Assembly: GCA_021776025.1 (NCBI GenBank)
Contig: JAJFGR010000007.1
Location: forward strand, 1 to 64,000
Direction of reading: 5' to 3'
Length of the DNA: 64,000 nt
Source: Alphaproteobacteria bacterium
Lineage (GTDB): Bacteria > Pseudomonadota > Alphaproteobacteria > Micavibrionales > Micavibrionaceae
A model generated the notes under the pieces. The model was not told where the DNA came from and did not search any database. It saw nothing but the letters and a program-made list of their open reading frames with translations. Positions 135-25,844 of this stretch are shown piece after piece. Position 1 is the first letter of the stretch; each line of letters opens with the position of its first letter. The position numbers and the translations under genes were made by a program.

Positions 135-225
135 GATCACCACCCAAAGCGGACATCTGAACAAACCTTATTTTGCATTTAAAAAGCCCAAATTACCCTG
201 AGGGTGTGCAAATTTATCAAATTGG

Positions 226-7448: not shown

Positions 7449-8690
7449 CTATTGTGGCCGAAGTTGGAAATCTTTAGCGATGTCAGGAGTAAGTTGTTTT
7501 CTCTGGATTTTGGCTCTTACATAATCGTGTATTTCTTTGTGTCTATGGGCGTCATTTAGGGCGTTATGATCTCCGTTGCCTGCAAATTCTATAGGCAAAC
7601 GCGGATTTCCAAATTTATCGCACAGGTGAACGATGTCACGCGCCAGAATTTTTTCTATTTGGGCTTCTTGTAAAACGTCTCTCAGGTTTTCACTGTTTTT
7701 ACTCAGAATATTGAAGAGCAAATATCGGTCATGATCGTCGTGAAACGACCAAAAATCAACAAGGTTGGCTGGTCCGACAAAATTCAAGATTTCCGGTCCG
7801 ACTTGCTCCAAGCTTTTCCATTCGGATTTTTCGATGTCTAAATGGGGTAAAACATTTTTTTGCAGCCAGTGATCGGGAGGAATTAAATCGATATAGTCTT
7901 TGATCACGGCATAATATTCACGTGATTTGTCATGAGAGACCATGCCAATGCTAATGGGGTAACAGGTGAATTTGTTGGGATTGTAGAATTCGAGATCATA
8001 AAAGAATAGTTTGTCACCTTCTTTTAGTGTTGGATCCTCAGGGACCATTGGAGGCATATTTTCTGTTTTATGCGCCAGTTTTCTTAGGTGGTTAAAATGT
8101 CCTCTATATGCTGCGGCAAAACCAGGTACTGCAGTTTTTTCTACAGATTCTATTAATTCAGGATCATTAAGGCGATGACGTAAATGAACAAGATCACGCG
8201 GTAAAAACTTTTCTATGCCTGTTCCATTGAAGATAGAGTAGGGGTTGCCTGCGGTACCACCAAACATAGAGGTAAGGAGGTGCCTGTTGGCACGGTCTTT
8301 GAACGTCCAGAATTCAACCTTTTTAGCCGGTGCGGAGGATACCATGTTCATGACTTTATGCTTTAGGTTATCAGCCGTGATTGGCGTTGCACCCGAAGCA
8401 ATAAGGTTCTCGATTTCTCGTCCCGTCTTCGCGCTGTTTTCTTTTATTTCTTCAATGTAATCTGTAATGACAAAACGGTTAACATCCTGACTGTCTTCTG
8501 GGTTCATTTCAAAATAGTAAGGCTTCTCTTCAAACTTTTTGCTTTGGTGTGATCGAAAGCCATAGAACCAGCGCCGGAGTTCTGGAAATTCAAGTAGTCG
8601 AGTTTCTTGATTAGAAGCGGAAGCGTGAATGGACGAAATTCCTAGTTCTTCTTGCCTCTCTCCTGCGCCTTGTGTTAGCCCCTTAGTCAT
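7449..8690 (-). CDS. DEDDh exonuclease-like protein with a tandem-duplicated domain
   Basis: The C-terminal half (about 215-400) is a DEDDh 3'-5' exonuclease of the exoribonuclease AS/Rv2179c kind. Motif I is FFYDLEF (D222, E224), motif II lies in the DFWSFHDDHDR region, and motif III is HNALNDA (H365, D370). The N-terminal half (about 38-200) repeats the same plan: WFYGFRS at motif I, VEFWTFKDRANRHLL at motif II, then FLPRDLVHLRHRL. It has lost every acidic metal ligand and the motif III histidine context (GHFNHLRKLAH). So one active and one dead copy sit in one chain. It stands alone between element remnants. The target is unknown; RNA is likely from the family. Confidence 0.72.
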   Translation of the reverse strand: MTKGLTQGAGERQEELGISSIHASASNQETRLLEFPELRRWFYGFRSHQSKKFEEKPYYFEMNPEDSQDVNRFVITDYIEEIKENSAKTGREIENLIASGATPITADNLKHKVMNMVSSAPAKKVEFWTFKDRANRHLLTSMFGGTAGNPYSIFNGTGIEKFLPRDLVHLRHRLNDPELIESVEKTAVPGFAAAYRGHFNHLRKLAHKTENMPPMVPEDPTLKEGDKLFFYDLEFYNPNKFTCYPISIGMVSHDKSREYYAVIKDYIDLIPPDHWLQKNVLPHLDIEKSEWKSLEQVGPEILNFVGPANLVDFWSFHDDHDRYLLFNILSKNSENLRDVLQEAQIEKILARDIVHLCDKFGNPRLPIEFAGNGDHNALNDAHRHKEIHDYVRAKIQRKQLTPDIAKDFQLRPQ

Positions 8691-8859
8691 ATCTGGTCGT
8701 TCATTTTATTGTGAGTAGGAGAACCATACATCGATAATTGAATTATGTCAATTATTATGCCTTTTAACCTCCAAAATCGCTTAAAAACTTACACACTTTT
8801 AATTTCAAGGAATAATTATTTAATAACTTCAAGGGCTTATCTCTGCCCTTGACCGATTC

Positions 8860-8911
8860 AAAATCTGTTGTCCGTATGGACGTGCCGGTTCAAGTCCGGC
8901 TAGGCCCACCA
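8860..8911 (+). pseudogene. 3' half of tRNA-Leu(UAA), att-like remnant
   Basis: These 52 bases equal the 3' exon of the tRNA-Leu at 17587-17638, including the encoded CCA, with one difference (8901 T for C). The match starts exactly at the second anticodon base. The 5' half is absent and replaced by unrelated DNA. A CTTACACACTTT motif stands 72 bases upstream (8788-8799), as it also does before another tRNA-Leu-like core at 30218. This is the structure of an attachment-site scar from an integrase that cuts in the anticodon loop. Confidence 0.75.
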
Positions 8912-9033
8912 CCTTTTACAAATATTCACAAAAAATGTCATCAACCCCATGCCCAGTAGAAGAATCTTGTGAATGCAGCAGATTATATGACTATAGCCGG
9001 TATCTGAGATAGATAAATCTTTTCGATTTATAA

Positions 9034-9156
9034 GCCCTCATGTGCGCGGACATGACCGTTTCTCCACCCGGGAGGAGGGCGTAAACGCTAGTAGTAGCGC
9101 CCCTGTTTAGTCTTGGCGCTCTTAATAATCCTTAAAGACCTTCTGTGAGATCATAA
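9034..9156. repeat. dispersed repeat B, copy 1, oriT-region relic
   Basis: This block matches 22514-22615 upstream of the MobA/MobL relaxase gene. It starts with GCCCTCAT and a CCCGGG core and ends with a 42-base stretch in which GGCGCTCTTAA, AAAGAC and TTCTGTGAGATCATAA are identical. The nick-like TAAGTGCGC that follows the second copy is missing here, so this looks like a worn transfer-origin region of a lost mobilisable element. With the tRNA-Leu scar it fills the gene-free stretch 8691-9214. Confidence 0.5.
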
Positions 9157-9214
9157 GCGTGATCTATCATATTTATCAATTTTTGAAAAACCGTAATTGT
9201 CGTAATGTAAACCG

Positions 9215-10603
9215 TTAGAGGTTAACTATTACTTCTACTTTTTTGTTGTTCTGTTGTATCTGAACGCTATTAGGATGCGGATTATTTAAATTATTATAAT
9301 GTCTTATTTTTAAATATGATTCCTGTACTTTAAGATGCTCTAAATTAAAGTTTTTGTCATTTTTTTGAGATGCACATATCAAAGTGAAATGAAGGCTTTT
9401 TTTATTAGAAGATTTGAGCGTAATAAATATTTGGTACTTCACACCCTTAAGCATTAGTGATTTGCAATATTCACTTATGTTATCAATAACCTTACACATA
9501 GCTCGTTCATAACCTGTTATAAACCATTCTAAGCCTGCCTCTGATATCATGATAGGTACACGACAGTTTGCTAAGTTTTCAAATGAATTTTTTACCATGC
9601 TCTCGATTTCTGTGTCCGTAATGGAGGTTTTCTGTTCATATCGAAGGATATGTGCTCCATCATTGTAAGCCTCGTAAAACCATTCTATGAACCTTTGAGT
9701 TTCCTTATTCAGAACAGTTTGAATTCCAAGGACATATTCTGCCATTTGAATATCATTATTTTGATAAAAATCTGCTGAAATGCTTTCATAGATTTCATCT
9801 TTGGTTTTAAGACGCTTATCCAAAGTATCTAAGAAATTTTTATAATTTACTAAGACAGATTCTGTAGCTTCAATGTTTTCAAAATAACTCCCTGCGATGC
9901 TTTTGATGTTTGTTAAAATCTCTAAAATCAAAATAATTTCGTCAGAAGTATCAGTCTTCTCAGTCGTCACAGTTTTAAGCTCAGGGAGTGTCCATATAGA
10001 TCTGCTTGTTTCCAAAAGATCATTAACAGGTTTGGAAATGCTCTTTTGAATCATGTTAGCTAAAGGAAAGCTGATCAAGACTAGAACGAACAAAAGACAT
10101 CCAAACACAAAAAACATCTGAGTGCGCATTAATTCCGATACTCTTTCTAAATGGGTATAGACAAAAAGAGTGCCTAAATTCTGTAGATGCTTTTCTTGAA
10201 TTGTGCTGCTAAAGACTTCAAAATTTGAACTTCGATCCGGGGAACCGTCTTGAGCTGTTTGGCAACTTTGTTCTGGCAATTCTGATCCGAAAAAACTTGC
10301 AAACAGTTTGCCTTCCACATCATAAAGGCAGGCTTGTTTTATAGATTTATCGTGTTGAAAAGCTGATAGAATTTTATTCGCATTCTCTAAATCTCTAAAT
10401 GCTAGTGATGCGGATAAGTGATCGCCGGTGATATTTGTCGTGATCTGAAAATTAATTCTCAGTTCCTGGCGTGTTTGTGAAATATCATAATAACTTACAG
10501 CAGATAAACAAACCAGTGTAGAGGGTATACAGACAGAGAAAATAATAAATATTATTTTCCATTTTATTGAAAGTTTTGAAAATAACTTTAATGGAGCCAT
10601 CAT
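9215..10603 (-). CDS. CHASE8-HAMP membrane sensor with an unclear output domain
   Basis: The protein has a membrane helix at about 15-35, a periplasmic CHASE8-type sensor domain (about 40-155), a second helix near 160-180 and a HAMP linker (about 180-235). CHASE8-HAMP proteins are normally diguanylate cyclases or histidine kinases controlled by the periplasmic repressor YfiR, and a YfiR gene lies directly upstream. Here residues 236-462 contain no GGDEF, no recognisable phospho-accepting histidine block and no glycine-rich ATP lid. A segment near 385-425 (VIDNISEYCKS, then alternating strands) could be a degenerate HATPase fold. It is the last gene of the operon; its ATG abuts the YfiR stop codon. 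Confidence 0.65.
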   Translation of the reverse strand: MMAPLKLFSKLSIKWKIIFIIFSVCIPSTLVCLSAVSYYDISQTRQELRINFQITTNITGDHLSASLAFRDLENANKILSAFQHDKSIKQACLYDVEGKLFASFFGSELPEQSCQTAQDGSPDRSSNFEVFSSTIQEKHLQNLGTLFVYTHLERVSELMRTQMFFVFGCLLFVLVLISFPLANMIQKSISKPVNDLLETSRSIWTLPELKTVTTEKTDTSDEIILILEILTNIKSIAGSYFENIEATESVLVNYKNFLDTLDKRLKTKDEIYESISADFYQNNDIQMAEYVLGIQTVLNKETQRFIEWFYEAYNDGAHILRYEQKTSITDTEIESMVKNSFENLANCRVPIMISEAGLEWFITGYERAMCKVIDNISEYCKSLMLKGVKYQIFITLKSSNKKSLHFTLICASQKNDKNFNLEHLKVQESYLKIRHYNNLNNPHPNSVQIQQNNKKVEVIVNL

Positions 10604-11137
10604 CTATAGAACCCTTCTTGCAATTTCAAGTAACTCAGAGTTAACGAAAATGCCTTTTTCTTTAAGAAGGCTATTATTGATTTCAATTTTTATGGTGTTG
10701 TCTATGGATACAAATCCAATCGTGCCCTTTTGATAAATGAAGTCCTTCACATCGCTCACAGTAACAATCGAACGATGTGAGGATGTTTTATAAAGTATCT
10801 GCTGCATTTCAAATTCTGCTGTTTCAGATATGTAGAGGATATTGCAGCTATCAAATGTAGATGACAGGTTTTTGGATTGAATATTCAGCGCACCGCTTAA
10901 ACCAGAGTTTTCTGTAATTTGAACGAGTTTTGCGCCTAATGCATCGTCGCCCACAACACAAATTTTTAGAGCGTCCTCTGAATTTTCCCACGAGATAAAC
11001 TGGGAAAGATTAACAAGATAAAGAGCTTTAATATATTCCGGATCATGGGAAGGGGGTTTGTCGCCTTCCGCCACGCAAACTGAAACATTATGTAGAATCG
11101 TGATGCAAAAAAATAAAAGCACCAGAAAATATTTCAT
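10604..11137 (-). CDS. YfiR-family periplasmic protein (DUF4154)
   Basis: YfiR proteins sit in the periplasm and hold a CHASE8-type sensor inactive until a signal, often redox or envelope stress, arrives. This 177-residue product begins with a signal peptide (MKYFLVLLFF) and carries the family landmarks. These are an early YIKALYLVNLSQFISW, then ICVVGDDALG, SCNILYISE, the hallmark TVSDVKDF and GTIGFVSIDN, and the ending NSELLEIARRV. I place the start at 11137; an ATG nine codons further upstream has no ribosome site. The mature chain keeps one cysteine (C118, in the SCNILYIS strand), so the disulfides of Pseudomonas YfiR cannot form. It is followed directly by the CHASE8 gene. Confidence 0.85.
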   Translation of the reverse strand: MKYFLVLLFFCITILHNVSVCVAEGDKPPSHDPEYIKALYLVNLSQFISWENSEDALKICVVGDDALGAKLVQITENSGLSGALNIQSKNLSSTFDSCNILYISETAEFEMQQILYKTSSHRSIVTVSDVKDFIYQKGTIGFVSIDNTIKIEINNSLLKEKGIFVNSELLEIARRVL

Positions 11138-11221
11138 GTTTTGAGTTCTCTCAAACTTTGACATTTATAAAGCCAAAGGGAAGATATTTGATACCTACCC
11201 TTTGGCTATTATAGATAAAAT

Positions 11222-11896
11222 TTATGCGACTTTTTGAAGCTTTTGGTAGCCATCGTCAGTGACATCAAGCATCATGGTGCTCCAAAGTGCGCTTGCTTGT
11301 TTCGCTGCAGCAACAGCCATAGTTGGATTATCTTCAATATGTTTTCTTAACATACCCATCAAGATTTTGCCATGCGCAAGGTCTTCTTTCGCATGAGCGC
11401 AGATCCATCTTTTTTCTTTAGATCCAAGACACAATCTCTCAACAAAACCCGCAACGTCATCCTGAAGGTATTTGGCAACGTTTTCAAATACATAAAGCAT
11501 TGCCAGATAACCGTTATCATGCCGGCCTTGCAACGAAATCCAAAAATCGTTAATCGCTACCACAGTTTCCGGTGTCTCGTTAGAAGGGGTGACACCAAAA
11601 GCCTCGAGATCTTTCAACGCGAGTCTATAGTGCAAGGCTTCGGCAGTATCAAACTCCATGAAAAGCTTTTTTATGTCTTCTCCTTGGACATGTTTAGCGG
11701 CGGTCGCACATTTCTGTCCGGATTCAAGTGTGTAGTGATACATCACATCCAAAAAGTAAATGTAAGCCTTCTCATCGGCGTATTTTAAAAACTCTCTTGC
11801 CACTTCAGCTGCTGATTTCGCACAAGACTCGACCTCAGTTATTGCTTGCAATGCTCTTTTAGAGAGATTTTCTGTTGGTGTTGCTTTAGTAGTCAT
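11222..11896 (-). CDS. haem-oxygenase-fold / TenA-PqqC-like protein, possible metal oxidase
   Basis: The helical 224-residue protein has the features of the haem-oxygenase-like superfamily that includes TenA, PqqC and the iron-dependent HDO oxidases. It has an early Y-H-Y-T-L-E-S helix, a D-T-A-E-A-L-H helix and a late A-K-E-D-L-A-H-G helix that could supply carboxylate and histidine ligands. The substrate is unknown. The start ATG at 11896 is chosen for its AGGAG site; the frame stays open 72 codons further up without a ribosome site. The 234 bases before it (11897-12130) hold no other gene and may be a leader. It lies between the receptor genes and YfiR in one operon. Confidence 0.6.
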   Translation of the reverse strand: MTTKATPTENLSKRALQAITEVESCAKSAAEVAREFLKYADEKAYIYFLDVMYHYTLESGQKCATAAKHVQGEDIKKLFMEFDTAEALHYRLALKDLEAFGVTPSNETPETVVAINDFWISLQGRHDNGYLAMLYVFENVAKYLQDDVAGFVERLCLGSKEKRWICAHAKEDLAHGKILMGMLRKHIEDNPTMAVAAAKQASALWSTMMLDVTDDGYQKLQKVA

Positions 11897-12130
11897 GGTA
11901 TTACTCCTTTTCAAAGTACTAGTGTTGAGGCTGGGTTTAAGGAATGCTTTTCTGGCGCCTCTGTCAGAAAATGCACTGTAAGACTGGAAGTGTGGACGTG
12001 ATAGGTCCGAAAGGTCTTGCTGATTTAAACTCACCTCAACCATTTTTATATGTTTCCAGCCTGTTCTTATTAAAAAAGTTAACAAACATCCAAATGTTCC
12101 CAAAATAACCATTGGTTTTTGCTTTCTTTA

Positions 12131-12418
12131 TTACCCCCTTCTTTCTTGATTGCCCAGCCGCCGATCAGAAACTTTGGCTTCGATTTTCTCTGGTGTTTTT
12201 TTGCGGCCGCGCTCCTTGAGTCTTATATCCAGGTGAATCTGACTGGGAGCTTCGGTGTATTGGAGATCATCCAAAAAACTAAAATTCATATCGATATCTA
12301 AATCGAAACGTTTTATGGAATTTCTTATTTTATTAAACCCAATTTCGATGGTTTTTTCTATTTCGTTCAAGGTAGATAATTGATCTTTCTGACTATTTTT
12401 TAACAACTCAGTATTCAT
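12131..12418 (-). CDS. 95-residue hypothetical protein of the receptor operon
   Basis: A small, highly charged protein without signal peptide or membrane segment. The first 40 residues form a predicted amphipathic helix (LSTLNEIEKTIEIGFNKI). The middle has an alternating strand-like stretch (APSQIHLDIRLKERG) and the tail is basic. I do not recognise a family. It is preceded by a good GAGG site and lies 18 bases after the TonB receptor gene, so it is very likely co-transcribed. Being specific to this operon, it could be a binding partner or a substrate of the neighbouring enzymes, but nothing in the sequence proves this. Confidence 0.6.
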   Translation of the reverse strand: MNTELLKNSQKDQLSTLNEIEKTIEIGFNKIRNSIKRFDLDIDMNFSFLDDLQYTEAPSQIHLDIRLKERGRKKTPEKIEAKVSDRRLGNQERRG

Positions 12419-12436
12419 AATATTTTCCTCAGTGTA

Positions 12437-14431
12437 CTAAAAGTTAAGGTCGAGTTTTACAAACATACTTCTGTCGACTTCGGCAGGAGAACCGTAAAGG
12501 AAAGGTTTAAACTCTGGATGTGACGGTTTCAGAAGGTTTAGCCCGACTAGACTAACTTCAATACCTTCTCGTGGTTTCCAGCCCAATCTCGTGTCAAACC
12601 TTGTATAGCTGGGTATATCAAATGCCTCTAATTCATCGACAAAAGAAAAATTGGTGTCCAGTTCGAAGTTATTTGGAAGATTAACTCGCGATAAGAGCGA
12701 GAATTGTTGCTCAGGTGTTTTGAGCTCTTCATCTGGGATGGATGTGTCATTACTTTTCTTATCTGCATGAAGAGCAAGATCTATATAGCTGTAATTTGCC
12801 GTAAGGCTCCAGTTTTTAAGGGGTACATATTTTGCTTCAATTTCAAATCCGTAAGCTTCACCAGAACCAAAATTTTCTGTAATTAGCGCTGCAATCGTAC
12901 CGGTACTAGGAAAAGGTGAAACTCCCGGCTCAAAAGTTCTGAGATTATCGTAAATATTCAAAAAAACCGAAGTGTCAAAAGCCAGTTTCTGCGTTGCTTT
13001 ATATCTATGACCCAATTCAAAAGCTGTCAGATCTTCTGATTTGTAATCTGAGTTTCCTGCCAGTCTTACAAAGCCACCAGGCGTACTTGCCGCAATGAGT
13101 GATATGCTTTGCTCGGCTATAGTGGGCGTGCGCACCGCTCTTGATACAGCGCCCCAAACAGTTTGTTTATTGGATGGATACCATGCAAATCGCGCATTAG
13201 GTTGAAATTCAAAATCTGTAAAATAGTGATGTTCAATCTTTGCTCCGACAATAAAGTGTAATACATCCGGTATTGCTTTGTATTCATTTTGTACAAAACC
13301 GCTATAAATATTTCCTGAAATATCGTCAGGAAAATACTCTAAATAGCTTTGGCCGTTTGAGAGCGTTCTGCTTTCTAAGCTATCTCGTATATGACGATAA
13401 CCCAGACCCCATATCAATTCGTTTTTAGAGTTAAGTTTTCTTGTGTTGTGATAATTGATATCGAATGTGAGGGCCTGTAACTTAAGTAAGTTATCAGAAT
13501 CTCTTTCATGGTAATCAATATAAGATTGTATTTTTTGATGTGTTTCGAATCCTTGTTTTTCCCAATTTCCAAGCAAGTGAAAACCCTGTGTCTTTTCGCT
13601 CTCCGATACTGAAGCTGTAACTGCTGGGGTTATTAACCCCGGAAAATTCTGGGTTTGATCAAGATCGCCGGAATAAAGCTCTCCAGATAAATTCCACTCA
13701 GTGTTTGAAGGCAGGTCGGAATCCACTCGAAAACCTACCTTGTATTGCTTCCATTGATCATCATTACCTGTTTGATCGGCGAGATTGGTTAATTCATCTT
13801 TTCCCAATGCTTTTGAATATACCCTATAAAATGTTTCATTATTAATCTGTCCACCATGTCTTAATTCAAGTGTGCCATCTTCTTGGTTACCATAAAGGAG
13901 AGAGGCGTACGTACCTTGGGTATTTTGCGCTTTTTTAGTGATAATATTTATCACACCATTAACGGCATTAGAGCCCCATATGGTTGCGCCAGGACCTCTG
14001 ATCACTTCAATTCTGTCTACATCAGCTAAAACAGTGTCTTGAATATCCCAGAATACTCCTGAGAATACGGGCGTATAAATAGACCTGCCATCAATAAGGA
14101 CCAAAAGCTTATTTGAATACTGCCTGTTAAAACCTCTTGAAGATATTGCCCATCTGTTTGAGTCGATCTGAGCTACGTTAATACCTGGGGTATATCTCAA
14201 TGCCTCAGGAATAGATGTTGCGCCAGATCTTCTTATATCTTCTTGTGTTACGACGCTTATGGAGGATGCCGTTTTAAATTGTATCTCCGGCTTTTTCGTA
14301 ACTGTAGTGACATAAGTTTCTGAGAGCTCTGCAAAGCTTGGTAACTGAGCATTGTAATTTGTTTCAGCATAAGCTGAAGTAGAAATAAGAATTAAAAATA
14401 ACAACGCAGAAGCTTTTTTTATCATTTGCAT
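12437..14431 (-). CDS. TonB-dependent outer-membrane receptor
   Basis: The 664-residue product has a signal peptide (MQMIKKASALLFLILISTSAYA), a plug domain (about 40-165) and a 22-strand barrel ending in aromatic LDLNF. The plug carries SISVVTQEDIRRSGATSIPEALRY, VLIDGRS and RIEVIRGPGATIWGSNAVNGVINIITK, which are classic for this family. Such receptors import siderophores, haem, B12 or sugars using the proton motive force through TonB. Receptors paired with YfiR and CHASE8 proteins form a recurrent gene arrangement, so the ligand may also be the signal. The start overlaps the upstream GNAT gene by 10 bases. No TonB or ExbBD gene is in the window. Confidence 0.92.
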   Translation of the reverse strand: MQMIKKASALLFLILISTSAYAETNYNAQLPSFAELSETYVTTVTKKPEIQFKTASSISVVTQEDIRRSGATSIPEALRYTPGINVAQIDSNRWAISSRGFNRQYSNKLLVLIDGRSIYTPVFSGVFWDIQDTVLADVDRIEVIRGPGATIWGSNAVNGVINIITKKAQNTQGTYASLLYGNQEDGTLELRHGGQINNETFYRVYSKALGKDELTNLADQTGNDDQWKQYKVGFRVDSDLPSNTEWNLSGELYSGDLDQTQNFPGLITPAVTASVSESEKTQGFHLLGNWEKQGFETHQKIQSYIDYHERDSDNLLKLQALTFDINYHNTRKLNSKNELIWGLGYRHIRDSLESRTLSNGQSYLEYFPDDISGNIYSGFVQNEYKAIPDVLHFIVGAKIEHHYFTDFEFQPNARFAWYPSNKQTVWGAVSRAVRTPTIAEQSISLIAASTPGGFVRLAGNSDYKSEDLTAFELGHRYKATQKLAFDTSVFLNIYDNLRTFEPGVSPFPSTGTIAALITENFGSGEAYGFEIEAKYVPLKNWSLTANYSYIDLALHADKKSNDTSIPDEELKTPEQQFSLLSRVNLPNNFELDTNFSFVDELEAFDIPSYTRFDTRLGWKPREGIEVSLVGLNLLKPSHPEFKPFLYGSPAEVDRSMFVKLDLNF

Positions 14432-15111
14432 TTTTTTTCTCCAAGAAAAGAAACTGGTTTATCCAAAATGTTTCCATGGTTTCTTATGCCTTTCCAATGA
14501 TCAGGCAATTCTAAACTTGATATGCAGACTTTGAGCTCACCATATTTTCCTTTTTTATCAGGGATTTCTATATCTTTATGGATCTTATATTCAAAAGGTA
14601 ATCCAATTGCTTTTGCCGCCTGCTTATTGCATCTGGCTTGAGCTAAAGAAGAAATGGAAAATAAATACTTGTAACCCTTAGCTATGGAATACGAGACCAT
14701 TTCAGTGAAAATGTAATGAAGCAAATCTAAGCTTCTAAAGCTTTTCACAACAGCAAGCCGTGTAAATTCACAATACGGCACATCTTTTAGTTGAAACTCA
14801 GGAAACAAATCCTCAAGGGATAACTCATCGCTATCCATAGGAATGCCTTTTGAATCTTCTGGAAACTTTCCGACAATTCTGGCACCCCCAATTACTATAT
14901 CCTTGTATGTAACAAGTAAAGTGTCAGAAACGGGATCATAAGCATGCTCGCTTCTATCAAAAACTCTTGGTAGGCCCTTTATTTCTCCATAACACGCGGC
15001 TCTCACGTCATCAAATTCAGTGAGCATATTCTGGTTTTTTGTGAAAAATGGAAAAATATCGCTTTGCAATCGGCAAAACTCATCTCCTGTACTGGTAAAT
15101 TCTTTTCTCAT
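14422..15111 (-). CDS. GNAT-fold N-acyltransferase, LuxI/PEP-CTERM-associated type
   Basis: The 229-residue protein shows the layout of acyl-homoserine-lactone synthases and related acyltransferases. There is an R-A-A-C-Y near 38, then D-x-V-S-D-T-L-L-V and GGARIVGKFP, then CEFTRLAVVKSFR near 120. This resembles the E-(F/S)-x-R-x-A-V motif of LuxI proteins. It probably transfers an acyl chain to an amine, but neither substrate can be read from the sequence. I prefer the ATG at 15111; the frame extends five codons to a GTG. It is the first gene of the operon and overlaps the receptor gene. A LuxR partner is not present; an XRE regulator is divergent. Confidence 0.6.
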   Translation of the reverse strand: MRKEFTSTGDEFCRLQSDIFPFFTKNQNMLTEFDDVRAACYGEIKGLPRVFDRSEHAYDPVSDTLLVTYKDIVIGGARIVGKFPEDSKGIPMDSDELSLEDLFPEFQLKDVPYCEFTRLAVVKSFRSLDLLHYIFTEMVSYSIAKGYKYLFSISSLAQARCNKQAAKAIGLPFEYKIHKDIEIPDKKGKYGELKVCISSLELPDHWKGIRNHGNILDKPVSFLGEKKCK

Positions 15112-15327: not shown

Positions 15328-15756
15328 ATGAGATTTATGACGAGCGAAGTAAAAACTAAAGGCAAGCCTAATGAGATGGATGTTCATGTCGGACAGCGCC
15401 TTAGAGTACAACGTGTCCTTTTCGGTCTTAGCCAAGAAAAACTGGCTGAGGCAATCGGGATTACTTTTCAACAAATTCAAAAATACGAATGCGGAAAAAA
15501 CCGCATCAGTGCAGGACGTTTATTTGATATAAGTAAAATACTCGATGTTCCGGTGAGTTATTTCTTTGAACATTTTGGGAGATTCCCTTCGAGTGCTCAC
15601 GTGGCGCAAGGACTTTTAGACAATGATCAGGATGAAGACATTATGAGTAGTAAAGAGACCCTCAATCTTGTTAGCGCCTATTATTCCATAGAAGACCTGG
15701 AAGCGCGAAAAGATATATTGAAGATCATCAAGTCATTTTCAAAAAAAAATGTATAG
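15328..15756 (+). CDS. XRE-family transcriptional regulator
   Basis: The product has one helix-turn-helix of the Cro/CI type at residues 21-78 (VGQRLRVQRVLFGLSQEKLAEAIGITFQQIQKYECGKNRIS). It is followed by a short tail without a recognisable sensor. This single-domain form is common in alphaproteobacteria. A TATAAT stands directly before the first ATG (15322-15327), so the second ATG, three codons in, may be used on a nearly leaderless transcript. It is divergent from the receptor operon and upstream of the integrase, so it could regulate either. Confidence 0.8.
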   Translation: MRFMTSEVKTKGKPNEMDVHVGQRLRVQRVLFGLSQEKLAEAIGITFQQIQKYECGKNRISAGRLFDISKILDVPVSYFFEHFGRFPSSAHVAQGLLDNDQDEDIMSSKETLNLVSAYYSIEDLEARKDILKIIKSFSKKNV

Positions 15757-15879: not shown

Positions 15880-15985
15880 ACTTTACATAGACCAAAATCA
15901 CAAAAAATTTCAATTAAATCAATATGATAAAAGTTTTAACTTTTACATATTATACTTACACATGTCTTACACACTTTTTATATTC

Positions 15986-16020
15986 CAGATGTCATCTGAT
16001 TTTTTGTCAGATGACATCTG
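15986..16020. promoter_or_regulatory. 14-bp inverted repeat before the integrase start
   Basis: CAGATGTCATCTGA (15986-15999) and its exact complement (16007-16020) surround a 7-base T-rich loop. Each arm is itself a near-palindrome, CAGATGwCATCTG, which also occurs at 15857 and 30206. The pair ends 23 bases before the preferred integrase ATG. It may be a regulator or excisionase operator, or an RNA hairpin limiting integrase expression. CTTACACA repeats stand just upstream (15955 and 15966). Confidence 0.6.
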
Positions 16021-16043
16021 CAAAATCTGCTGGAGTTAAGAAG

Positions 16044-17288
16044 ATGCAACAAGAAACACACTCTTTCATGGATGGAAAAGTTCACGTTTATAAACGTGAC
16101 AACTCCCGCTTCTGGCAATGTGCCACCTATATGAACGGACGCAATCACCGCGTTTCAACAAAAGAAGAAAGCCTTACTCTTGCAAGAGAGTTCGCGCGCG
16201 AATGGTATATGGCGGTTTACGTAGACTTTAAACGCCAAACCCATAGCAGCCGAACCACCCAACTGCTCGAAAAGTTTGATCCTTTGGATACATCCAAACC
16301 CGAGCCAATAACAAAGCCTCAGAAATCCTCCGGCTATACATTCGCTCAAGCCGCCGAGAAATTTATCGGCGAATATGAATTGAGCGTAGCCGGACAACGC
16401 AACGAACGTTACGCCAAATCTCATGAACGGCGTTTGCTGCTTCACTTAATCCCATTCTTTGGCGATATGCCTATAAAAGACATTAACGCTGGCTTGATGC
16501 AGGAACATCGTATCAGACGAACTCAGAACGGATTTAATGGTAAAATTCCTACACGCAGCACACTGCATCACGAAACGGTTACTATGCGTTTAGTGCTTAA
16601 AACAGCGCACCGTTACGGCTGGATAGATGCCGTGCCGGACATTTCCCCACCCTACAAAACATCAGGGAAAGTTGCACACCGAGCATGGTTTGCACCAGAA
16701 GAATACAAAACGCTTTACGAAGGAACGCGAGAACTCGCAAAAAATCCGACATTAGAACGTTACAGAACGGTCTACGAGGATTTACACGACTACGTGCTAT
16801 TCATGGCGAACACTGGGTTACGGCCTGACGAGGCCGGACGCCTTGAATACAGGGATGTCACACCCGTGACAGACCAAGATACTGGCGAACGCCTTTTAGA
16901 AATTGAGGTGCGCGGTAAGCGCGGCATTGGACACTGTAAAAGCATGACGGGGGCTATTCTGCCGTTTCAGCGGATGCAAGAACGCCATAACGGCCAACCG
17001 ATGGATAAAATCTTCGGCAAGACCCCATGTCTTTTAAACAAGGTTCTGGAAGATCTAGATCTCAAAACAGACCGCGATGGAAATATACGAACGGCTTACA
17101 GCCTTCGTCACACCTACATCTGCTTACGCTTGATGGAAGGTGCGGACATTTACCAAGTGGCCAAGAATTGCCGCACCAGCGTTGAGATGATTGAGAAATA
17201 CTATGCTGTTCATCTCAAAAACACGCTGGACGCTTCGGCGATCAATGTCAGGAAGCCCAAGAGAAAGCCGCGAAAATCAGACGAATAA
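16044..17288 (+). CDS. tyrosine-type site-specific integrase
   Basis: The enzyme cuts and rejoins DNA at att sites through a tyrosine. The core-binding domain spans about 60-170 and the catalytic domain about 185-395. I see the first arginine in NTGLRPDEAGRLEY, the YSLRHTY box with R and H, and the nucleophile in MIEKYYAVHL near the end. The start at 16044 (414 residues) is preferred because GGAG stands 8 bases upstream. A longer frame opens at 15924 but would run through the CTTACACA repeats and the palindrome. The gene ends 53 bases before the tRNA-Leu gene and points towards it. That is the reverse of the usual order, in which the integrase follows the tRNA 3' end. Confidence 0.9.
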   Translation: MQQETHSFMDGKVHVYKRDNSRFWQCATYMNGRNHRVSTKEESLTLAREFAREWYMAVYVDFKRQTHSSRTTQLLEKFDPLDTSKPEPITKPQKSSGYTFAQAAEKFIGEYELSVAGQRNERYAKSHERRLLLHLIPFFGDMPIKDINAGLMQEHRIRRTQNGFNGKIPTRSTLHHETVTMRLVLKTAHRYGWIDAVPDISPPYKTSGKVAHRAWFAPEEYKTLYEGTRELAKNPTLERYRTVYEDLHDYVLFMANTGLRPDEAGRLEYRDVTPVTDQDTGERLLEIEVRGKRGIGHCKSMTGAILPFQRMQERHNGQPMDKIFGKTPCLLNKVLEDLDLKTDRDGNIRTAYSLRHTYICLRLMEGADIYQVAKNCRTSVEMIEKYYAVHLKNTLDASAINVRKPKRKPRKSDE

Positions 17289-17341
17289 AAGATTTAGTGG
17301 CTTGAATAAACAGCAACATCCCCTTATCAATAACCTTGGAT

Positions 17342-17638
17342 GGGCCTGTGGCGGAATGGTAGACGCTGCAGACTTAAAAAATTGAGTGCACACCGGGAAA
17401 CCGGAGATGTAGAACTGCTCAAATTCGGGGAAACCTTTCAAATGGCAATCCCGAGCCAAGCCTTTTGGAAACGAAAGGAAGGTGTAGAGACTAGACGGGC
17501 AGCACCTAAAGCTTTTTAGCAACGGTGAAGGGATAGTCCAGACCACAAACCTCATTTAGAGGGCAGTGAAGACTGTAGCGGGTAAGAAAATCTGTTGTCC
17601 GTATGGACGTGCCGGTTCAAGTCCGGCCAGGCCCACCA
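17342..17638 (+). tRNA. tRNA-Leu(UAA) interrupted by a group I intron
   Basis: The exons are 17342-17375 and 17587-17638. Joined, they give an 86-nt class II tRNA with acceptor GGGCCTG/CAGGCCC, anticodon arm GCAGACTTAAAATCTG, a long variable arm, a T arm GCCGG/CCGGC and an encoded CCA. The intron lies between U34 and A35 of the anticodon, the same position as in cyanobacterial tRNA-Leu(UAA). A possible promoter is TTGAAT (17302) with TATCAA (17325). The 3' exon is duplicated at 8860-8911. Confidence 0.93.
17376..17586 (+). ncRNA. self-splicing group I intron, IC3-like, in tRNA-Leu
   Basis: The 211-nt insert follows a U and ends in G, as group I introns do. Its core has the conserved strings GGCAATCCCGAGCCAAGCC (P and Q region, near 17443), AGAGACTAGACGGG (R region, near 17487) and AAGGGATAGTCCA (S region, near 17528). 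These closely match the tRNA-Leu introns of cyanobacteria. It carries no homing endonuclease or other ORF. It should remove itself from the precursor with guanosine as cofactor. Confidence 0.92.
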
Positions 17639-17730
17639 CTTCCTTAGAATTTCGAATACGGCCAAAAGCGGACATTTAGAAAAAGAAGATCATCTTAGCA
17701 ATATTTTTTCCGATACCGATAAATCAATTA

Positions 17731-17759
17731 TTGTCCGAGATATAGAATCGCATTATAAT
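17731..17759 (+). promoter_or_regulatory. sigma-70-like promoter of the reverse-transcriptase leader
   Basis: TTGTCC (17731-17736), 17 bases, then a perfect TATAAT (17754-17759). The predicted start near 17766 falls within two bases of the first position of the 140-bp direct repeat, so the transcript would begin with that repeat. A copy of AGCGGACAT (17667-17675) lies between the tRNA-Leu gene and this promoter. Confidence 0.6.
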
Positions 17760-17767
17760 AGCTCCGT

Positions 17768-17907
17768 TTCCCACCTGCCAGATTATCTGGAAACAAGTTG
17801 GTGACTGTTCATCGCAGCCCGTGTTGTGGTTGGAATGTAGCAAACCAATGAGGCGCCCCTTGGGGTTACTCATTAAGGCTTTTGTGAAATTCAACTTCAG
17901 AGCCTCT
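17768..17907 (+). repeat. 140-bp direct repeat, copy 1, RT-associated leader
   Basis: Identical to 18122-18261 except for three adjacent bases (17826-17828, GTG here and ACA there). It contains two strong foldbacks. The first is CCAGAT-T-ATCTGG (17779-17791). The second is AATGAG closing on CTCATT with an inner CCCC-TT-GGGG (about 17847-17874). The predicted transcription start coincides with its first base. It is most likely part of a structured RNA that the downstream reverse transcriptase binds or copies. Confidence 0.8.
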
Positions 17908-17943
17908 GCCTTTATCACGCTCAAAACAACAAGGAAAAATGCA

Positions 17944-18336
17944 ATGAATGAAAAGCTCTTAACGTTTAACTTCCATATAGGAGCTAGCGGACATGTTTCA
18001 GGGACCGGCGGGGCGCTCGGGTGGCGCGCGATGGCGCTCTTAGGGGCAAAAGTCGCAGATATTTTACATAACGTAAAGTGGGCGGGAGGCAAAATTGCGG
18101 AAGTTGCGGTAAAACACATAGTTCCCACCTGCCAGATTATCTGGAAACAAGTTGGTGACTGTTCATCGCAGCCCGTGTTACAGTTGGAATGTAGCAAACC
18201 AATGAGGCGCCCCTTGGGGTTACTCATTAAGGCTTTTGTGAAATTCAACTTCAGAGCCTCTAGCTTGGTTGAAATGGATGTTTTAGTATGGATTTCAACC
18301 AAGCGGACAGGGTTTTTCCTAAACCACAACAAATAG
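17944..18336 (+). CDS. possible 130-residue protein between and across the repeats
   Basis: An ATG with a well-placed AAGGA site (17931-17935) opens a frame of 130 codons. The first 60 residues are unique, glycine-rich and protein-like (HIGASGHVSGTGGALGWRAM). The rest is the translated second repeat followed by the start of the RT gene region. It overlaps the RT gene by 49 bases. I do not recognise it. The frame runs back open through the first repeat as well, because the repeats are 354 bases (118 codons) apart. It may be a real small gene or an accident of a structured RNA region. Confidence 0.35.
   Translation: MNEKLLTFNFHIGASGHVSGTGGALGWRAMALLGAKVADILHNVKWAGGKIAEVAVKHIVPTCQIIWKQVGDCSSQPVLQLECSKPMRRPLGLLIKAFVKFNFRASSLVEMDVLVWISTKRTGFFLNHNK
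18122..18261 (+). repeat. 140-bp direct repeat, copy 2, RT-associated leader
   Basis: Second copy, 354 bases after the first and ending 26 bases before the RT start codon. 137 of 140 bases agree and all differences are contiguous (18180-18182). The same two foldbacks are kept. The surroundings of the two copies share nothing beyond the repeat itself; the copies end sharply after GAGCCTCT. Confidence 0.8.
18264..18303 (+). promoter_or_regulatory. perfect 12-bp inverted repeat around the RT start codon
   Basis: CTTGGTTGAAAT (18264-18275) pairs with ATTTCAACCAAG (18292-18303). The 16-base loop contains the RT start codon (18288-18290), and there is no ribosome site before it. As RNA this would hide or present the start codon, so translation could be controlled by the fold or by the RT protein itself. 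It follows directly on the second repeat. Confidence 0.65.
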
Positions 18337-19532
18337 CCTCCATCAAAAAAATTGAAGAAGCTTGGAGAGATTCTAATGATTCCAAGGGCACCGGCAGCGC
18401 GCGTGGTGTAGATGGAGAAACGGCCTATAAATTTAAAGGTCGGTTGCAAACAAATTTTCATGAAATAAGACAAGATTTAATCGATGGAACATATGATTTC
18501 AGTAAATTGAAAGCGTTTCCGATTGAGAAAAAACCAGGGAAATACAGAATAATCTGTATTCCCACCATCAGAGATAGGCTTGTTCAGAGGCTAATATTGA
18601 GAAGCCTTACATGGGATTCAAAAACCGGTCGGGAACGCGACCGTCTAAAAACTCAAACTACAGTTAGTTTTGGCGTTAGAAAAGGTAAGGAGCAGAGTGT
18701 TCATGGAGCTATTAAGGCAGCTCTAAAATATCGCAATAAATGTGGCTGGGTGGTTAAAACAGACATTTCTAAGTTTTTTGACCAGATACCTCGTAAAGAA
18801 TTAAAGAAACTTGTGAGAAACAGACTGGGGTCTTCAAGTATTGTTCCTTTAATTGAAAAGGCTATTGATTGTGAGTTGGAAATTCCAAGAGATAAAGAGC
18901 TGCAAGAAATTATAAAAGATAATGGAATAAAAGCGAATGTAGGACTTCGACAGGGAATGCCTTTGTCACCTCTTCTGTCTAATTTGGTGCTCAACAAGTT
19001 TGATAGAAAGGCAGAGCGCAAGGGACTGAAATTAATTCGTTACGCTGATGACATTATTGCCTTCGCTTCTGATGAAGATGAAGCGAAACAAATTTTTTCT
19101 TTTATTGATTCAGAGTTGAGAAAGATAAAATTGAAAATACCAGCGCTTGGCGCAGGCGATAAGTCTGACATTTTTTTGCCTGATAAGCCTGTGATTTTTC
19201 TTGGAATAGAAATTTATAAAAATAAAAAAGGTGAATATGATCGTAGAATACCAAAAGCAACCTTTGAAAAAGCTAGAACTAAAGTTCAGCAACATAAAGA
19301 CCTGAATTGGAATCTTGAAAACAACTATTCATATGCTGATGTGATTAGAAGATTGAAAGATATTCCAGAAGGGTACAGTTCTGCTTTTGGCGATTGCACA
19401 AATCTTGGCTCGCTTCTTGATTTGCTTAAAAAGGAAGGGGGTGATGTTAAGCAGCATCTGATCTCCGAAATATTTGGTGAAGAGGTTTATGCTCGCCTTA
19501 CACCAGAAGAGAAAGACTTTTTAGGGTTTTAG
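18288..19532 (+). CDS. stand-alone reverse transcriptase of uncertain group
   Basis: The 414-residue protein has the RT palm and finger motifs in order: RGVDGETAYKF near 40, PIEKKPGKYRIICIPTIRDRLVQR near 78-101, KTDISKFFDQIP (157-168), LRQGMPLSPLLSNLVL (220-235) and RYADDIIAF (251-259), then FLGIEIY near 304. There is no maturase thumb with HNH nuclease, so it is not a group II intron protein. It lacks the retron NAxxH and VTG signatures, and the QGMPLSP box differs from the xGxxxSQ of diversity-generating retroelements. It most likely belongs to the unknown-group or defence-associated RTs. The repeated leader is its likely RNA partner. Confidence 0.88.
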   Translation: MDFNQADRVFPKPQQIASIKKIEEAWRDSNDSKGTGSARGVDGETAYKFKGRLQTNFHEIRQDLIDGTYDFSKLKAFPIEKKPGKYRIICIPTIRDRLVQRLILRSLTWDSKTGRERDRLKTQTTVSFGVRKGKEQSVHGAIKAALKYRNKCGWVVKTDISKFFDQIPRKELKKLVRNRLGSSSIVPLIEKAIDCELEIPRDKELQEIIKDNGIKANVGLRQGMPLSPLLSNLVLNKFDRKAERKGLKLIRYADDIIAFASDEDEAKQIFSFIDSELRKIKLKIPALGAGDKSDIFLPDKPVIFLGIEIYKNKKGEYDRRIPKATFEKARTKVQQHKDLNWNLENNYSYADVIRRLKDIPEGYSSAFGDCTNLGSLLDLLKKEGGDVKQHLISEIFGEEVYARLTPEEKDFLGF

Positions 19533-19635
19533 TTTTGAAGTGTTTTTCATACTTAGAGCTATCACTTTTGTCGAACATTCCCTGAATTGCGACCTCTTCT
19601 ATGTCCGCTTTGGGTCGACAGCCGCTATTTTCTCT

Positions 19636-19700
19636 TTTTAGTGTTCGGATAGTTTATAGGAATTGCCTCGTACGCACCAGTAGAGTCCTATTTCCGCAAT
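19636..19700. repeat. dispersed repeat A, copy 2
   Basis: Matches 7282-7349 with small gaps. It follows ATGTCCGC (19601-19608) and ends before the 3' end of the next minus-strand gene. Together with AGCGGACAT at 17667 the motif forms an inverted pair that brackets the tRNA-distal RT cassette. Function unknown. Confidence 0.55.
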
Positions 19701-19723
19701 CAATAGCTTCAATGGCTTAGACT

Positions 19724-20635
19724 TTATTTAACTGCAATTGCATTGGGCAGTAGTACATTTAGGTTTCCGCTTTCTATTAAGCGCGGTGTACCATGTTCGG
19801 TGGTTCTGACCAGCATTCCTGCAGTATTTCCGCCAGTTAAGGCAATAGCATCCTTGCACCCCAAACCATTTTCGTTCTTGGGCTTTGATAAGAAGCTAGC
19901 CAAAGTGAATAAATCTATTTCAGAAGTTATGCCCATAAAAACTTGGTTGTCTTGTGCTAAACAGATAAAAGAACGCTTGTGTTTCCCATTAACAAACTTG
20001 GGATCATTTGTATTGTTGAGCGTAGCTTTAGAATTATTTTGAACAAGAAGAGGCCCACTTTGCAAACAGTCTGGCCAAGGCTCAAATTGAGCTTCATTTT
20101 TATATGCATCAATTACGATCTTTTTGCCATCCGTACATATAAATCCATCAGTAATCCAAGTTTTATGAGGTTTGTTTAAAGTAACTGTTCGTACCTTAAT
20201 GTAACCTAGTGGATAGGCGGGCTGTATAGAGCTTAAATAGCCGCCAGAGTGAACAGCGGCAAAATTAGCTGATTGAATAAATTCATTTAAATTATTTCCA
20301 GAGCCGTAGGTGAATACGGCTTCTCCTGAATCGGAGGTTATTGGTTCACCAGATTCAGTGGTTAAAAAAGCCTGAGAAGAAATTAAACTTAAGGAGCGCT
20401 TTGTTAAATCTACCTCGGTTAAGGTTATATCAAAAGGTTTTGCTTCTGTATTTATTGATAATTTTTTTGTTTCTATTCCATCAAGTTCGCTGTGGAAATC
20501 ATTGGAAAAATCTTTTGCTAAAAAATCGTGTGCTTCTTCTTTAGGTTGTTGGTTTGATGTTTTCATCCATAAGGAACCAACAAGAACTAATAAGCCAAGG
20601 CCAGCTAACAAAATTATCTTGGGTTGATGGTTCAT
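19724..20635 (-). CDS. membrane-anchored phosphodiester-glycosidase-like protein (NAGPA/DUF2233)
   Basis: An N-terminal membrane anchor (about 7-22) is followed by an extracytoplasmic domain that resembles the phosphodiester glycosidase family. Landmarks are AAVHSGGYLS (the usual N-x-G-F position), QSGPLLVQNN near 195, RSFICLAQDNQVFMGITSE and CKDAIALTGGNTAGMLV near 262. The last equals the A-x-N-L-D-G-G-x-S-A box of the family but with T in place of the aspartate, so the catalytic state is uncertain. It is translationally coupled to the upstream gene by a 4-base overlap. Confidence 0.65.
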   Translation of the reverse strand: MNHQPKIILLAGLGLLVLVGSLWMKTSNQQPKEEAHDFLAKDFSNDFHSELDGIETKKLSINTEAKPFDITLTEVDLTKRSLSLISSQAFLTTESGEPITSDSGEAVFTYGSGNNLNEFIQSANFAAVHSGGYLSSIQPAYPLGYIKVRTVTLNKPHKTWITDGFICTDGKKIVIDAYKNEAQFEPWPDCLQSGPLLVQNNSKATLNNTNDPKFVNGKHKRSFICLAQDNQVFMGITSEIDLFTLASFLSKPKNENGLGCKDAIALTGGNTAGMLVRTTEHGTPRLIESGNLNVLLPNAIAVK

Positions 20636-21177
20636 TTGGACACTCCGTAAATATTTACAAGTGCCTTAATCGAAACCGCTTCATCAGAGAATTGTGCGGG
20701 ACTTCTAAAGGCAAGGGTGTGAATATTTTCTCCAAGTGGATAAAGTCCCTGGGCCTTAGAACGTTTGATGTATTCAGTTAAGTTTATAGTATTGAGCTGA
20801 TTCTCAGAATTTATGGGTAAAAGCTCTTGATCTAGGTGTACTTCTACTTTTCTTGGAGGCGCTCCCGATCCCACACGCACCATTTCAACGGTGAGAATTG
20901 TTTTTTTATAACCGTTTATGTATATGGGAATATATTTGACTTGGTCTGTTGGTGTTCCGTCAGAGGAAAATGTCTGATTAAAGGTAAAATGATCTTTATA
21001 AGAAATTCCTATATATTCTTCTTTGAGAACTTCTTCAATTTTAGACTCTACATATGAGTCAATGCCAAGGGCGCATATGTACAAAACGCTGCCGATTACG
21101 CCTGCTCCACAAATAGTCCAGAGCGGGTGTCCTAAGAGCAGTTGAAGAAAGTTCTTAAATGTTGGTCTTCCTGACAT
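20632..21177 (-). CDS. hypothetical membrane-anchored protein, partner of the NAGPA-like gene
   Basis: A single membrane helix at about 20-36 (GAGVIGSVLYICALGI) precedes a 140-residue extracytoplasmic domain. That domain is mostly strand (IPIYINGYKKTILTVEMVRVG, IHTLAFRSPAQF). I do not recognise a family. It ends in an ATGA overlap with the NAGPA-like gene, so the two are made together and may form one envelope complex. The upstream 170 bases contain no other gene. Confidence 0.55.
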   Translation of the reverse strand: MSGRPTFKNFLQLLLGHPLWTICGAGVIGSVLYICALGIDSYVESKIEEVLKEEYIGISYKDHFTFNQTFSSDGTPTDQVKYIPIYINGYKKTILTVEMVRVGSGAPPRKVEVHLDQELLPINSENQLNTINLTEYIKRSKAQGLYPLGENIHTLAFRSPAQFSDEAVSIKALVNIYGVSK

Positions 21178-21348
21178 GCTCTATAGTTACAGCTATAGGC
21201 TCGTATCCTCAAGTTTTTTGATTTCAGCATTTTCAGCTTTATATTTTCCATACTCACCGTTATCAGATTTTTATTTTATTTAGGTTAAAGAAAAGCTTAA
21301 ATGTCTTAGGTGGTATATAGGTGAACGCAAAGCGGATGATTTTCTACT

Positions 21349-22422
21349 ATGGCTGTAATTGAAGGACAGATTGAGCCGCTCAAAAAAATAAAGGGCATAC
21401 TGCATGACAATGGAATTACACGATTTAGTTCCATTGGCGAGATTAATTCTTTTAAAAAAAACTATCAGATAGAAAAAAATATAATATCTAAGGAAATTGA
21501 AGTTGAAGTAACTTGCCAAATAAAGCAGCTAGAATGTGACCTCGTCAAATATCAGCAAGAATATGAAGATTTTAAAAATGAAATAATTGGCGACATACAT
21601 AGTGAAATCAAAAGCCTGGATATAGAATTAAAAATCATTAAAGAAAAAAGCAGTAAAAGCTTTATTTACAAAATCCTCTGCTATCCAAAAACAAAATCTC
21701 TAACAAATAAGAATGCGCACTTAGAAACAAATTTTGACAATGTCGTAAGCAACAGAACGCACCACTACGAAAAACAAGCTGTCGAAACCAGAGATAAATT
21801 AAACGATTATACGACCAATAAAGACAAAATAATATCAGAGCGCACCCTAGATTCATCGCGAGAGTTAGAGAATACAAAGGAGGTTGTTGACGGACTTTAC
21901 CCTTTAATTGCTGGAGCAATAGGGGAGAATTCCGTCACAAAAGAAGTCCAAAAGCTGCCTGATAACTTTCATTTGTTTAATGATTTTTCAGTGGAGTTTG
22001 ATCCACCTATCTACAACAAAAAAGAAGATGACAGGATATACAGTATTCAAATAGATCATCTATTAGTCTGTGAGGCGGGAATTTTTGTTTTAGAGACAAA
22101 AAACTGGGGCAAACAATCAGTTAATAGCCTTGATCTGAGGTCTCCTATAAAACAGATACGAAGATCAAGTTTTGCTCTGTTTGTGATGCTAAATAGCCGA
22201 TCAAACCACAATATCAATTTGGAGCGCCACCACTGGGGCAGCAAACAGATACCTGTTAGAAACCTAATCGTTATGACTGGCGCGAAACCAAAAGAAGAAT
22301 TCAAGCATGTAAAAGTCTTATCGCTTAAGGAACTGAACGGATACATAACCTATTTTGACCCTATTTTTAGCACTGCAGAAGTCGAGAGCCTTTGTGATTA
22401 TTTAAAAATGAAAACATCCTAA
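21349..22422 (+). CDS. NERD-domain (nuclease-related) protein with coiled coil
   Basis: Residues 1-155 are rich in charged heptads and probably form a coiled coil. Residues 180-330 are a NERD domain of the PD-(D/E)xK nuclease superfamily: IAGAIGENSVTKEV, then IQIDHLLVCEAGIFVLETKNWG, which supplies D and E-x-K. The C-terminal VRNLIVMTGAKPKEEF and a final helix match the family. NERD proteins are often found in mobile or defence gene sets. No partner gene is in the same direction until the relaxase. Confidence 0.78.
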   Translation: MAVIEGQIEPLKKIKGILHDNGITRFSSIGEINSFKKNYQIEKNIISKEIEVEVTCQIKQLECDLVKYQQEYEDFKNEIIGDIHSEIKSLDIELKIIKEKSSKSFIYKILCYPKTKSLTNKNAHLETNFDNVVSNRTHHYEKQAVETRDKLNDYTTNKDKIISERTLDSSRELENTKEVVDGLYPLIAGAIGENSVTKEVQKLPDNFHLFNDFSVEFDPPIYNKKEDDRIYSIQIDHLLVCEAGIFVLETKNWGKQSVNSLDLRSPIKQIRRSSFALFVMLNSRSNHNINLERHHWGSKQIPVRNLIVMTGAKPKEEFKHVKVLSLKELNGYITYFDPIFSTAEVESLCDYLKMKTS

Positions 22423-22513
22423 ATCAACCAAATGGATGGCCCAAAACAGCAAAGTATTGGAATACTAGCCTTGTACCTAAGCCTCAAACCCAGTAAAACG
22501 GCTTTATGCCGTA

Positions 22514-22640
22514 GCCCTCATAGGCATGACCCCTTCCCCGCCCGGGTGGGTGGTGAGCCCTTCGTTTAGCTCCGGCGCTCTTAAATATTCCTAAAGACAT
22601 TCTGTGAGATCATAAAAGTGTAATAGCGCACTTACGCAAA
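22514..22640. other. putative origin of transfer (oriT), with repeat B copy 2
   Basis: The block upstream of the relaxase gene shares its first hundred bases with 9034-9156. It then contains TAAGTGCGC on the minus strand (22634-22626). The same string is the core of the RSF1010-type nic site, which MobQ relaxases cut, and the adjacent gene is a MobQ relaxase. The CCCGCCCGGGTGGG region and the GGCGCTC segment may provide stem structure. The gap 22423-22513 holds nothing else I can support. Confidence 0.5.
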
Positions 22641-22689
22641 CTATGTTTGCAGAGCGCTTATGGCACAACTTTTACTGCGTAAAAAAACA

Positions 22690-24897: not shown

Positions 24898-24917
24898 ATT
24901 CTGCAATATTTTTTTAA

Positions 24918-25193: not shown

Positions 25194-25217
25194 GTAAAAT
25201 TCCTTCGTGTTTTATAT

Positions 25218-25247: not shown

Positions 25248-25261
25248 CCTTTGAGTTGGGG

Positions 25262-25809: not shown

Positions 25810-25844
25810 AAAACCGGAAAAACGGTGAAAATAGAGACTGTGCA

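Follow-up and report, generated by a model that had tools for sequence, protein, structure and literature searches.

The window, i.e. the whole stretch of 64,000 nucleotides analysed here, comes from contig 21 of a 2.3 Mb assembly. Its minus strand carries a series of closely spaced genes, which encode, in this order, a putative N-acyltransferase (AT), a TonB-dependent receptor, a 95-residue open reading frame (ORF), a haem-oxygenase-fold enzyme, a YfiR-like protein and a CHASE8 sensor. The AT and receptor genes overlap by 10 nt, the genes of YfiR and CHASE8 abut directly, and both the barrel and the plug domain of the receptor are confirmed by Pfam. The co-directional genes and the divergent XRE regulator lie where the preliminary description had placed them. 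The locus and its surroundings comprise the following features:

8860 to 8912, plus strand: direct repeat of the tRNA-Leu(UAA) 3' end (53 bp, 98%), the distal boundary of the module and integrase region
9215 to 10603, minus strand: CHASE8 membrane sensor with a probably degenerate histidine-kinase (GHKL-fold) C-terminus (PF17152 and structure match)
10604 to 11164, minus strand: YfiR-like periplasmic protein, 186 aa (PF13689, NF053591)
11222 to 11899, minus strand: haem-oxygenase-like dimetal oxidase (HDO), 225 aa (PF14518, PDB 3dde, ligands)
11900 to 12112, minus strand: annotated N-terminal extension of the oxidase, apparently a non-coding remnant of the receptor gene's 3' end (receptor alignment, codon positions)
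12131 to 12418, minus strand: 95-aa ORF, probably what is left of a duplicated receptor 3' end (ungapped alignment, absent from the G059 locus)
12437 to 14431, minus strand: TonB-dependent receptor, TOL_0244-like, 664 aa (NF053590, AT-linked clade)
14422 to 15111, minus strand: FeeM/LuxI-fold N-acyltransferase (AT), 229 aa from ATG, 234 aa from GTG at 15126 (AlphaFold2 model, PDB match)
15328 to 15756, plus strand: divergent XRE/HTH_3 regulator (PF01381, 50.6 bits)
15924 to 17288, plus strand: probable tyrosine recombinase/integrase with CAGATGTCATCTGA repeats ahead of it (sub-threshold integrase-domain Pfam matches)
17340 to 17637, plus strand: tRNA-Leu(UAA) gene split by a group I intron (exon sequence; RF00028, 65 bits at 17366-17561)

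Not all of these features are functional genes. The preliminary description had counted six, including one for an unknown 95-residue protein, and only five remain: residues 8-73 of the 95-aa ORF give an ungapped alignment with receptor residues 557-622 (score 71; equalled in 0 of 2000 shuffles, maximum 59), and the ORF was not found at the locus of the congener (G059; the window genome is G000). Its candidacy as an independent new component was rejected on this alignment to the receptor C-terminus. A second alignment pairs residues 13-63 of the annotated oxidase with receptor residues 612-663 (score 57; equalled in 0 of 2000 shuffles, maximum 51). The window and G059 share 74% identity over the 71 codons of this pre-oxidase stretch, in which the differences are spread flatly over the three codon positions (20/19/22), the corresponding counts being 60/41/117 for the oxidase proper, 215/131/402 for the receptor and 69/50/123 for AT. 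Because of this flat upstream pattern, and of an AAGGAG ribosome site ahead of the ATG at 11899 in both species, the start of the oxidase is placed at 11899 and not at 12112; the long frame from 12112, whose upstream 71 codons do not evolve as coding DNA, was rejected. Taken together, the 95-aa ORF and the N-terminal stretch of the oxidase suggest, from their alignments, that the 3' end of the receptor gene was once duplicated and that the copy has since decayed; the oxidase was likely brought between the receptor gene and yfiR by the recombination event behind this duplication. The strong promoter of its own that had been attributed to the operon was likewise abandoned, since sigma-70-like sites are not in excess over shuffles (21 vs 21.6 expected) and the intergenic site reaches only 9/12.

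The AlphaFold2 model of AT (pLDDT 71, pTM 0.71) has its best PDB match in FeeM (2g0b; Foldseek E 3.4e-8; VIA Z 16.9, 168 aligned, rmsd 2.8 Å), with the next structure less than one Z unit behind (VIA 16.9 vs 16.1). GNAT folds are common, and the AHL synthases TofI (Z 14.7) and LasI (Z 14.4) appear among many other GNATs that match the model; in the structural alignments with FeeM and LasI/TofI the identity is about 11-18%. AT scores 19.4 bits against the FeeM Pfam family PF21926, below the cut-off of 27, and no match to the Pfam autoinducer-synthase family was obtained up to E 1. Residues R37, Y41, D59, E115 and R118 are invariant across the four Micavibrionaceae homologues, and R37...D59...E115-x2-R118 corresponds to the active-site pattern R...D...E-x2-R of LuxI-type AHL synthases; of this pattern, E-x2-R is kept in the homologue of G251, and E and R are both lost in that of G443. 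The LuxI-like fold proposed for the acyltransferase is supported by FeeM as best structural match and by the conserved LuxI-type active-site residues, with the Pfam match to FeeM remaining sub-threshold. As a separate observation, the AT genes of G101 and G102 (L078:9924-9980 and its equivalent in L079) have no ATG, GTG or TTG in their own frame before the first conserved residues, and a short upstream ORF, preceded in G101 by an AGGAG site, runs into a stretch of A residues at which frameshifting would lead into the frame of AT; either a programmed frameshift or a shared homopolymer error would account for this.

At E<1e-20, AT homologues were recovered from six genomes of Alphaproteobacteria (G000, G059, G101, G102, G251 and G443), and in 6/6 loci AT is located immediately upstream of a TOL_0244-like receptor. 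AT, receptor, YfiR and CHASE8 form a full set in G059, G101, G102 and G443, and G251 has only the AT-receptor pair, with YfiR and CHASE8 absent beside it. In class samples of 385 genomes the receptor occurs in 16 and AT in three, always together with the receptor. On a tree of 23 receptor sequences the six AT-linked receptors form a single clade (support 91/89) that spans three families; the AT label changes once on this tree as compared with a mean of 5.4 for shuffled labels, and 0 of 500 shuffles were as low. G443 has two receptors, one with AT and one without, the latter grouping with same-family receptors that have no AT, outside the AT-linked clade. These comparisons argue that AT and receptor belong together, the linkage to one receptor clade being the strongest evidence. 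G832, which belongs to another class of the same phylum, has a more distant, solitary AT relative without a receptor. A scan of GTDB contigs with the single AT protein gave no matches, a scan with a four-row AT profile found only three Micavibrionaceae relatives, and no AT was found on plasmids.

The same comparisons bear on an OlsB-like role, in which AT would adapt the envelope by making a membrane aminolipid or surfactant (an N-acyl amino acid), the receptor, YfiR and CHASE8 would sense envelope or metal status, and the two would be co-regulated without any ligand relation. The AT profile weakly matches OlsB-like PF13444 acyltransferases that adjoin an apparent PlsC-type gene, and one AT homologue, that of G102, reaches 34 bits to PF13444 (cut-off 22.4). 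However, no PlsC-like partner was recognised beside AT, and AT is linked exclusively to the one receptor clade across three families, so that we regard this role as unlikely.

The receptor scores 599 bits against NCBIfam NF053590 (TOL_0244) over residues 32-663, under the equivalog cut-off of 645, and the receptors of G059, G101 and G102 reach 588, 638 and 625 bits against the same cut-off. YfiR obtains 72.6 bits to NF053591 (TOL_0243), under the cut-off of 125, and 99.3 bits to PF13689 (DUF4154), over the cut-off of 24.9. Similarly, the CHASE8 protein obtains 86.5 bits to NF053592 (HK_near_YfiR_like), under the cut-off of 194, and its CHASE8 domain 42.1 bits to PF17152, over the cut-off of 27. 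The preliminary description had called receptor, YfiR and CHASE8 a known arrangement; what holds is the resemblance to the NCBIfam triad, but all three proteins stay below its cut-offs and, judged by these scores, are relatives rather than certified members of the TOL_0244/TOL_0243/HK triad. In the open-access literature no dedicated paper on TOL_0244-type receptor-YfiR-kinase systems was found; a search for DUF4154 together with TonB-dependent receptors found none, and one for YfiR, TonB and CHASE8 led to papers on other subjects.

The output end of the triad is altered in the Micavibrionaceae. HisKA and HATPase_c domains are present in 7/7 scanned CHASE8-position proteins of other loci, whereas neither was detected in the CHASE8 proteins of the four Micavibrionaceae AT loci, from which the DxGxG box is gone as well. 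In the window protein the sole His in residues 205-322 is H318, and there is none in the expected phospho-acceptor helix. Nevertheless, residues 325-462 of the predicted structure (model pLDDT 63, which calls for caution) match the CA domain of NtrB (1r62; Z 14.0, 119 aligned, 2.1 Å). The CHASE8 protein of these four loci is best read as a pseudo-histidine kinase. The XRE regulator adjoins the module in 4/4 Micavibrionaceae loci (window, G059, G101 and G102); it is divergent in the first two of these, and in G101 and G102 it follows CHASE8 directly. Downstream of CHASE8 in the window, a candidate RNA element (9000-9200) was rejected on a shuffle z of only -1.55 and on the Rfam result for 8690-9240, in which a tRNA remnant at 8833-8908 stayed below threshold and the only other match, on the opposite strand, was at chance level. 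Downstream of the module in G059 (L014:8101-11644), an apparent subtilisin-like protease and an AAA ATPase are seen by eye in adjacent positions.

The possible metal oxidase of the preliminary description is corroborated by a match to PF14518 (Haem_oxygenas_2) over the cut-off (46.9 bits), by PDB 3dde (E 1.8e-6) and by a complete 3H/3C dimetal ligand set, i.e. E86-x2-H89, E138 and H168-x3-D172-x2-H175, as described for UndA-type enzymes (PMC13108848). All six ligands are conserved in seven homologues. At the module position the oxidase is present in 2/6 AT loci, namely in the window and in G059, and its status as a conserved sixth member was rejected on this count. Conservation of both accessory genes with receptor and YfiR, which the preliminary description had treated as decisive, holds for AT, as seen in the full sets of G059, G101, G102 and G443 and in the single receptor clade, and fails for the haem-oxygenase-fold gene, which is in place only in the congener. 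Thus, the operon is real and partly conserved: AT is its conserved and interesting part, the oxidase is lineage-specific and the 95-aa ORF is a false component. Beyond the XRE gene, downstream in the locus, G101 and G102 encode a protein that by eye resembles a cupin/JmjC-type oxygenase and has no NCBIfam match. In other Micavibrionaceae (L072-L076) a different haem-oxygenase-like oxidase lies between apparent AMP-binding ligase and short-chain dehydrogenase genes, possibly a conserved biosynthetic cluster.

A further alternative is a role in metal acquisition, with AT and oxidase tailoring an acylated metallophore, the receptor taking it up and YfiR-CHASE8 reporting the metal status. The receptor is similar to the siderophore-receptor family and haem-oxygenase-like dimetal oxidases perform N-oxygenation (PMC13108848), but the module is without metallophore assembly genes and the oxidase was not found in 4/6 AT loci, which makes such a role quite improbable.

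Module and probable integrase are flanked by two copies of the tRNA-Leu(UAA) 3' end, at 8860-8912 and 17588-17639 (36 bp exact), the right copy belonging to the intron-split tRNA-Leu(UAA) gene. About ten more copies are present in the own genome (contigs C2, C4, C13, C20 and C21; loci L017-L022), several of them behind ACAGATGTCATCTGACTTAAAAT, and they look like a family of small integrative elements that target the intron-interrupted anticodon-loop sequence; it might even be speculated that the group I intron protects tRNA-Leu(UAA) from insertion. As the intact tRNA is at the other end from where it usually lies, the geometry of the element is unusual and its exact boundaries are uncertain. 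An empty site was not found, the left flanking gene having no full-length match in the congeners; the one flank gene of G059 that was compared matches the own genome only weakly, and on a different contig. Several further observations concern the surroundings. The intron of tRNA-Leu(UAA) lies in the anticodon loop, and the own genome holds a second full intron-split copy and a third that is truncated within the intron (C4:40833-41139 and C21:793703-793906); ARAGORN reports neither of the full intron-split genes. The region 17640-30227 contains a reverse transcriptase (18288-19532), a MobA/MobL relaxase (22660-24897) and a copy of the element-end sequence at 30206. Apparent type I restriction-modification genes lie beside a tRNA-Leu/intron fragment at a contig end (L018, C21:784001-794635), and the last 156 bases of L018 match window positions 1-156 in inverted orientation. 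That the module is fortuitous cargo, i.e. that a mobile island carries a known receptor triad beside an unrelated acyltransferase and oxidase, is the least probable alternative: the module adjoins an integrase at a tRNA-Leu hotspot and the oxidase and the relic look like local additions, but the AT-receptor adjacency in 6/6 loci tracks the receptor phylogeny and the two genes overlap.

The reading that we favour, with a probability of about 45%, is a variant of the receptor-YfiR-CHASE8 envelope-sensing triad into which a small-molecule N-acyltransferase has been wired, and which makes and senses, or imports, an acyl molecule. The LuxI/FeeM-type fold of the model and the complete dimetal site support a module that may modify acyl molecules. 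We infer the biochemical and signalling steps, i.e. acylation, modification, import, sensing and relay, as follows. Judged by its fold and active-site residues, AT would acylate an amino-acid-like amine, with acyl-ACP or acyl-CoA as the donor. In the window lineage the dimetal oxidase may modify the product, and G101 and G102 carry the apparent cupin/JmjC-like protein instead; this acylation-oxidation step is modelled on the tyz cluster, which combines an N-acyl amino acid synthase with an O2-dependent oxidase (PMC10404671). The exclusive AT-receptor linkage suggests that the receptor binds, and possibly imports, the released acyl molecule. In Pseudomonas YfiBNR, YfiR is sequestered at the outer membrane by YfiB, and in some YfiBNR homologues kinase outputs replace GGDEF (PMC3375315). 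By analogy with YfiB, the occupied receptor might change how YfiR is captured at the outer membrane, and YfiR would then control the CHASE8 protein. The latter would have to act on a partner, and not by phosphorylation, because its kinase fold is kept but the phospho-acceptor histidine and the G-box are lost, and the adjacent XRE protein would be the likeliest transcriptional partner or autoregulator. Points against making and sensing by one module are G251, which has no YfiR and CHASE8 beside the AT-receptor pair, the loss of E and R of E-x2-R in G443 and the solitary AT of G832.

A further point against the favoured reading is that small diffusible acyl signals are not the usual cargo of TonB receptors, which is siderophores, cobalamin or glycans. 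Quorum or self sensing via an outer-membrane receptor, in which a LuxI/FeeM-fold synthase is coupled to its own TonB-dependent receptor and onwards through YfiR and the CHASE8 pseudokinase to XRE, with no LuxR-type receptor in the module, is doubtful. The acyl signal of canonical LuxI systems passes into the cell and is read there by LuxR. If our favoured reading is true, an acyl molecule would be read at the outer membrane, a route different from LuxI-LuxR, and a first candidate ligand class would be available for the TOL_0244-type receptor-YfiR-kinase systems named by NCBIfam. The recurrence of the AT-receptor pairing in distant relatives hints at an unusual way of signal making and sensing.

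Among known systems, FeeM and LasI/TofI share the fold and the R...D...E-x2-R pattern with AT, which differs in not exceeding the FeeM Pfam cut-off and in having no LuxR-type receptor among the module genes. The module oxidase shares the PF14518 match and the 3H/3C set with the haem-oxygenase-like dimetal oxidases UndA, BesC, SznF and CADD and differs from them in its operon setting. The tyz acyl-oxazolone cluster of Mycobacterium tuberculosis (PMC10404671) has the succession of N-acyl amino acid synthase and O2-dependent oxidase in common with the module; it uses a flavin oxidase and a ThiF-type cyclase, whereas the module has an HDO, and the abstract on the cluster describes no receptor. With YfiBNR of Pseudomonas aeruginosa (PMC3375315) the module shares a YfiR-like periplasmic repressor and a CHASE8/YfiN-like sensor, but it has a receptor in place of the Pal-like YfiB and a pseudokinase output without GGDEF. 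Finally, the gene order receptor-YfiR-CHASE8 is common to the module and the TOL_0244/TOL_0243/HK_near_YfiR_like triad, from which the module differs by the upstream AT, the apparently degenerate kinase domain and the inserted oxidase. The new part as compared with the known triad is the linked acyltransferase.
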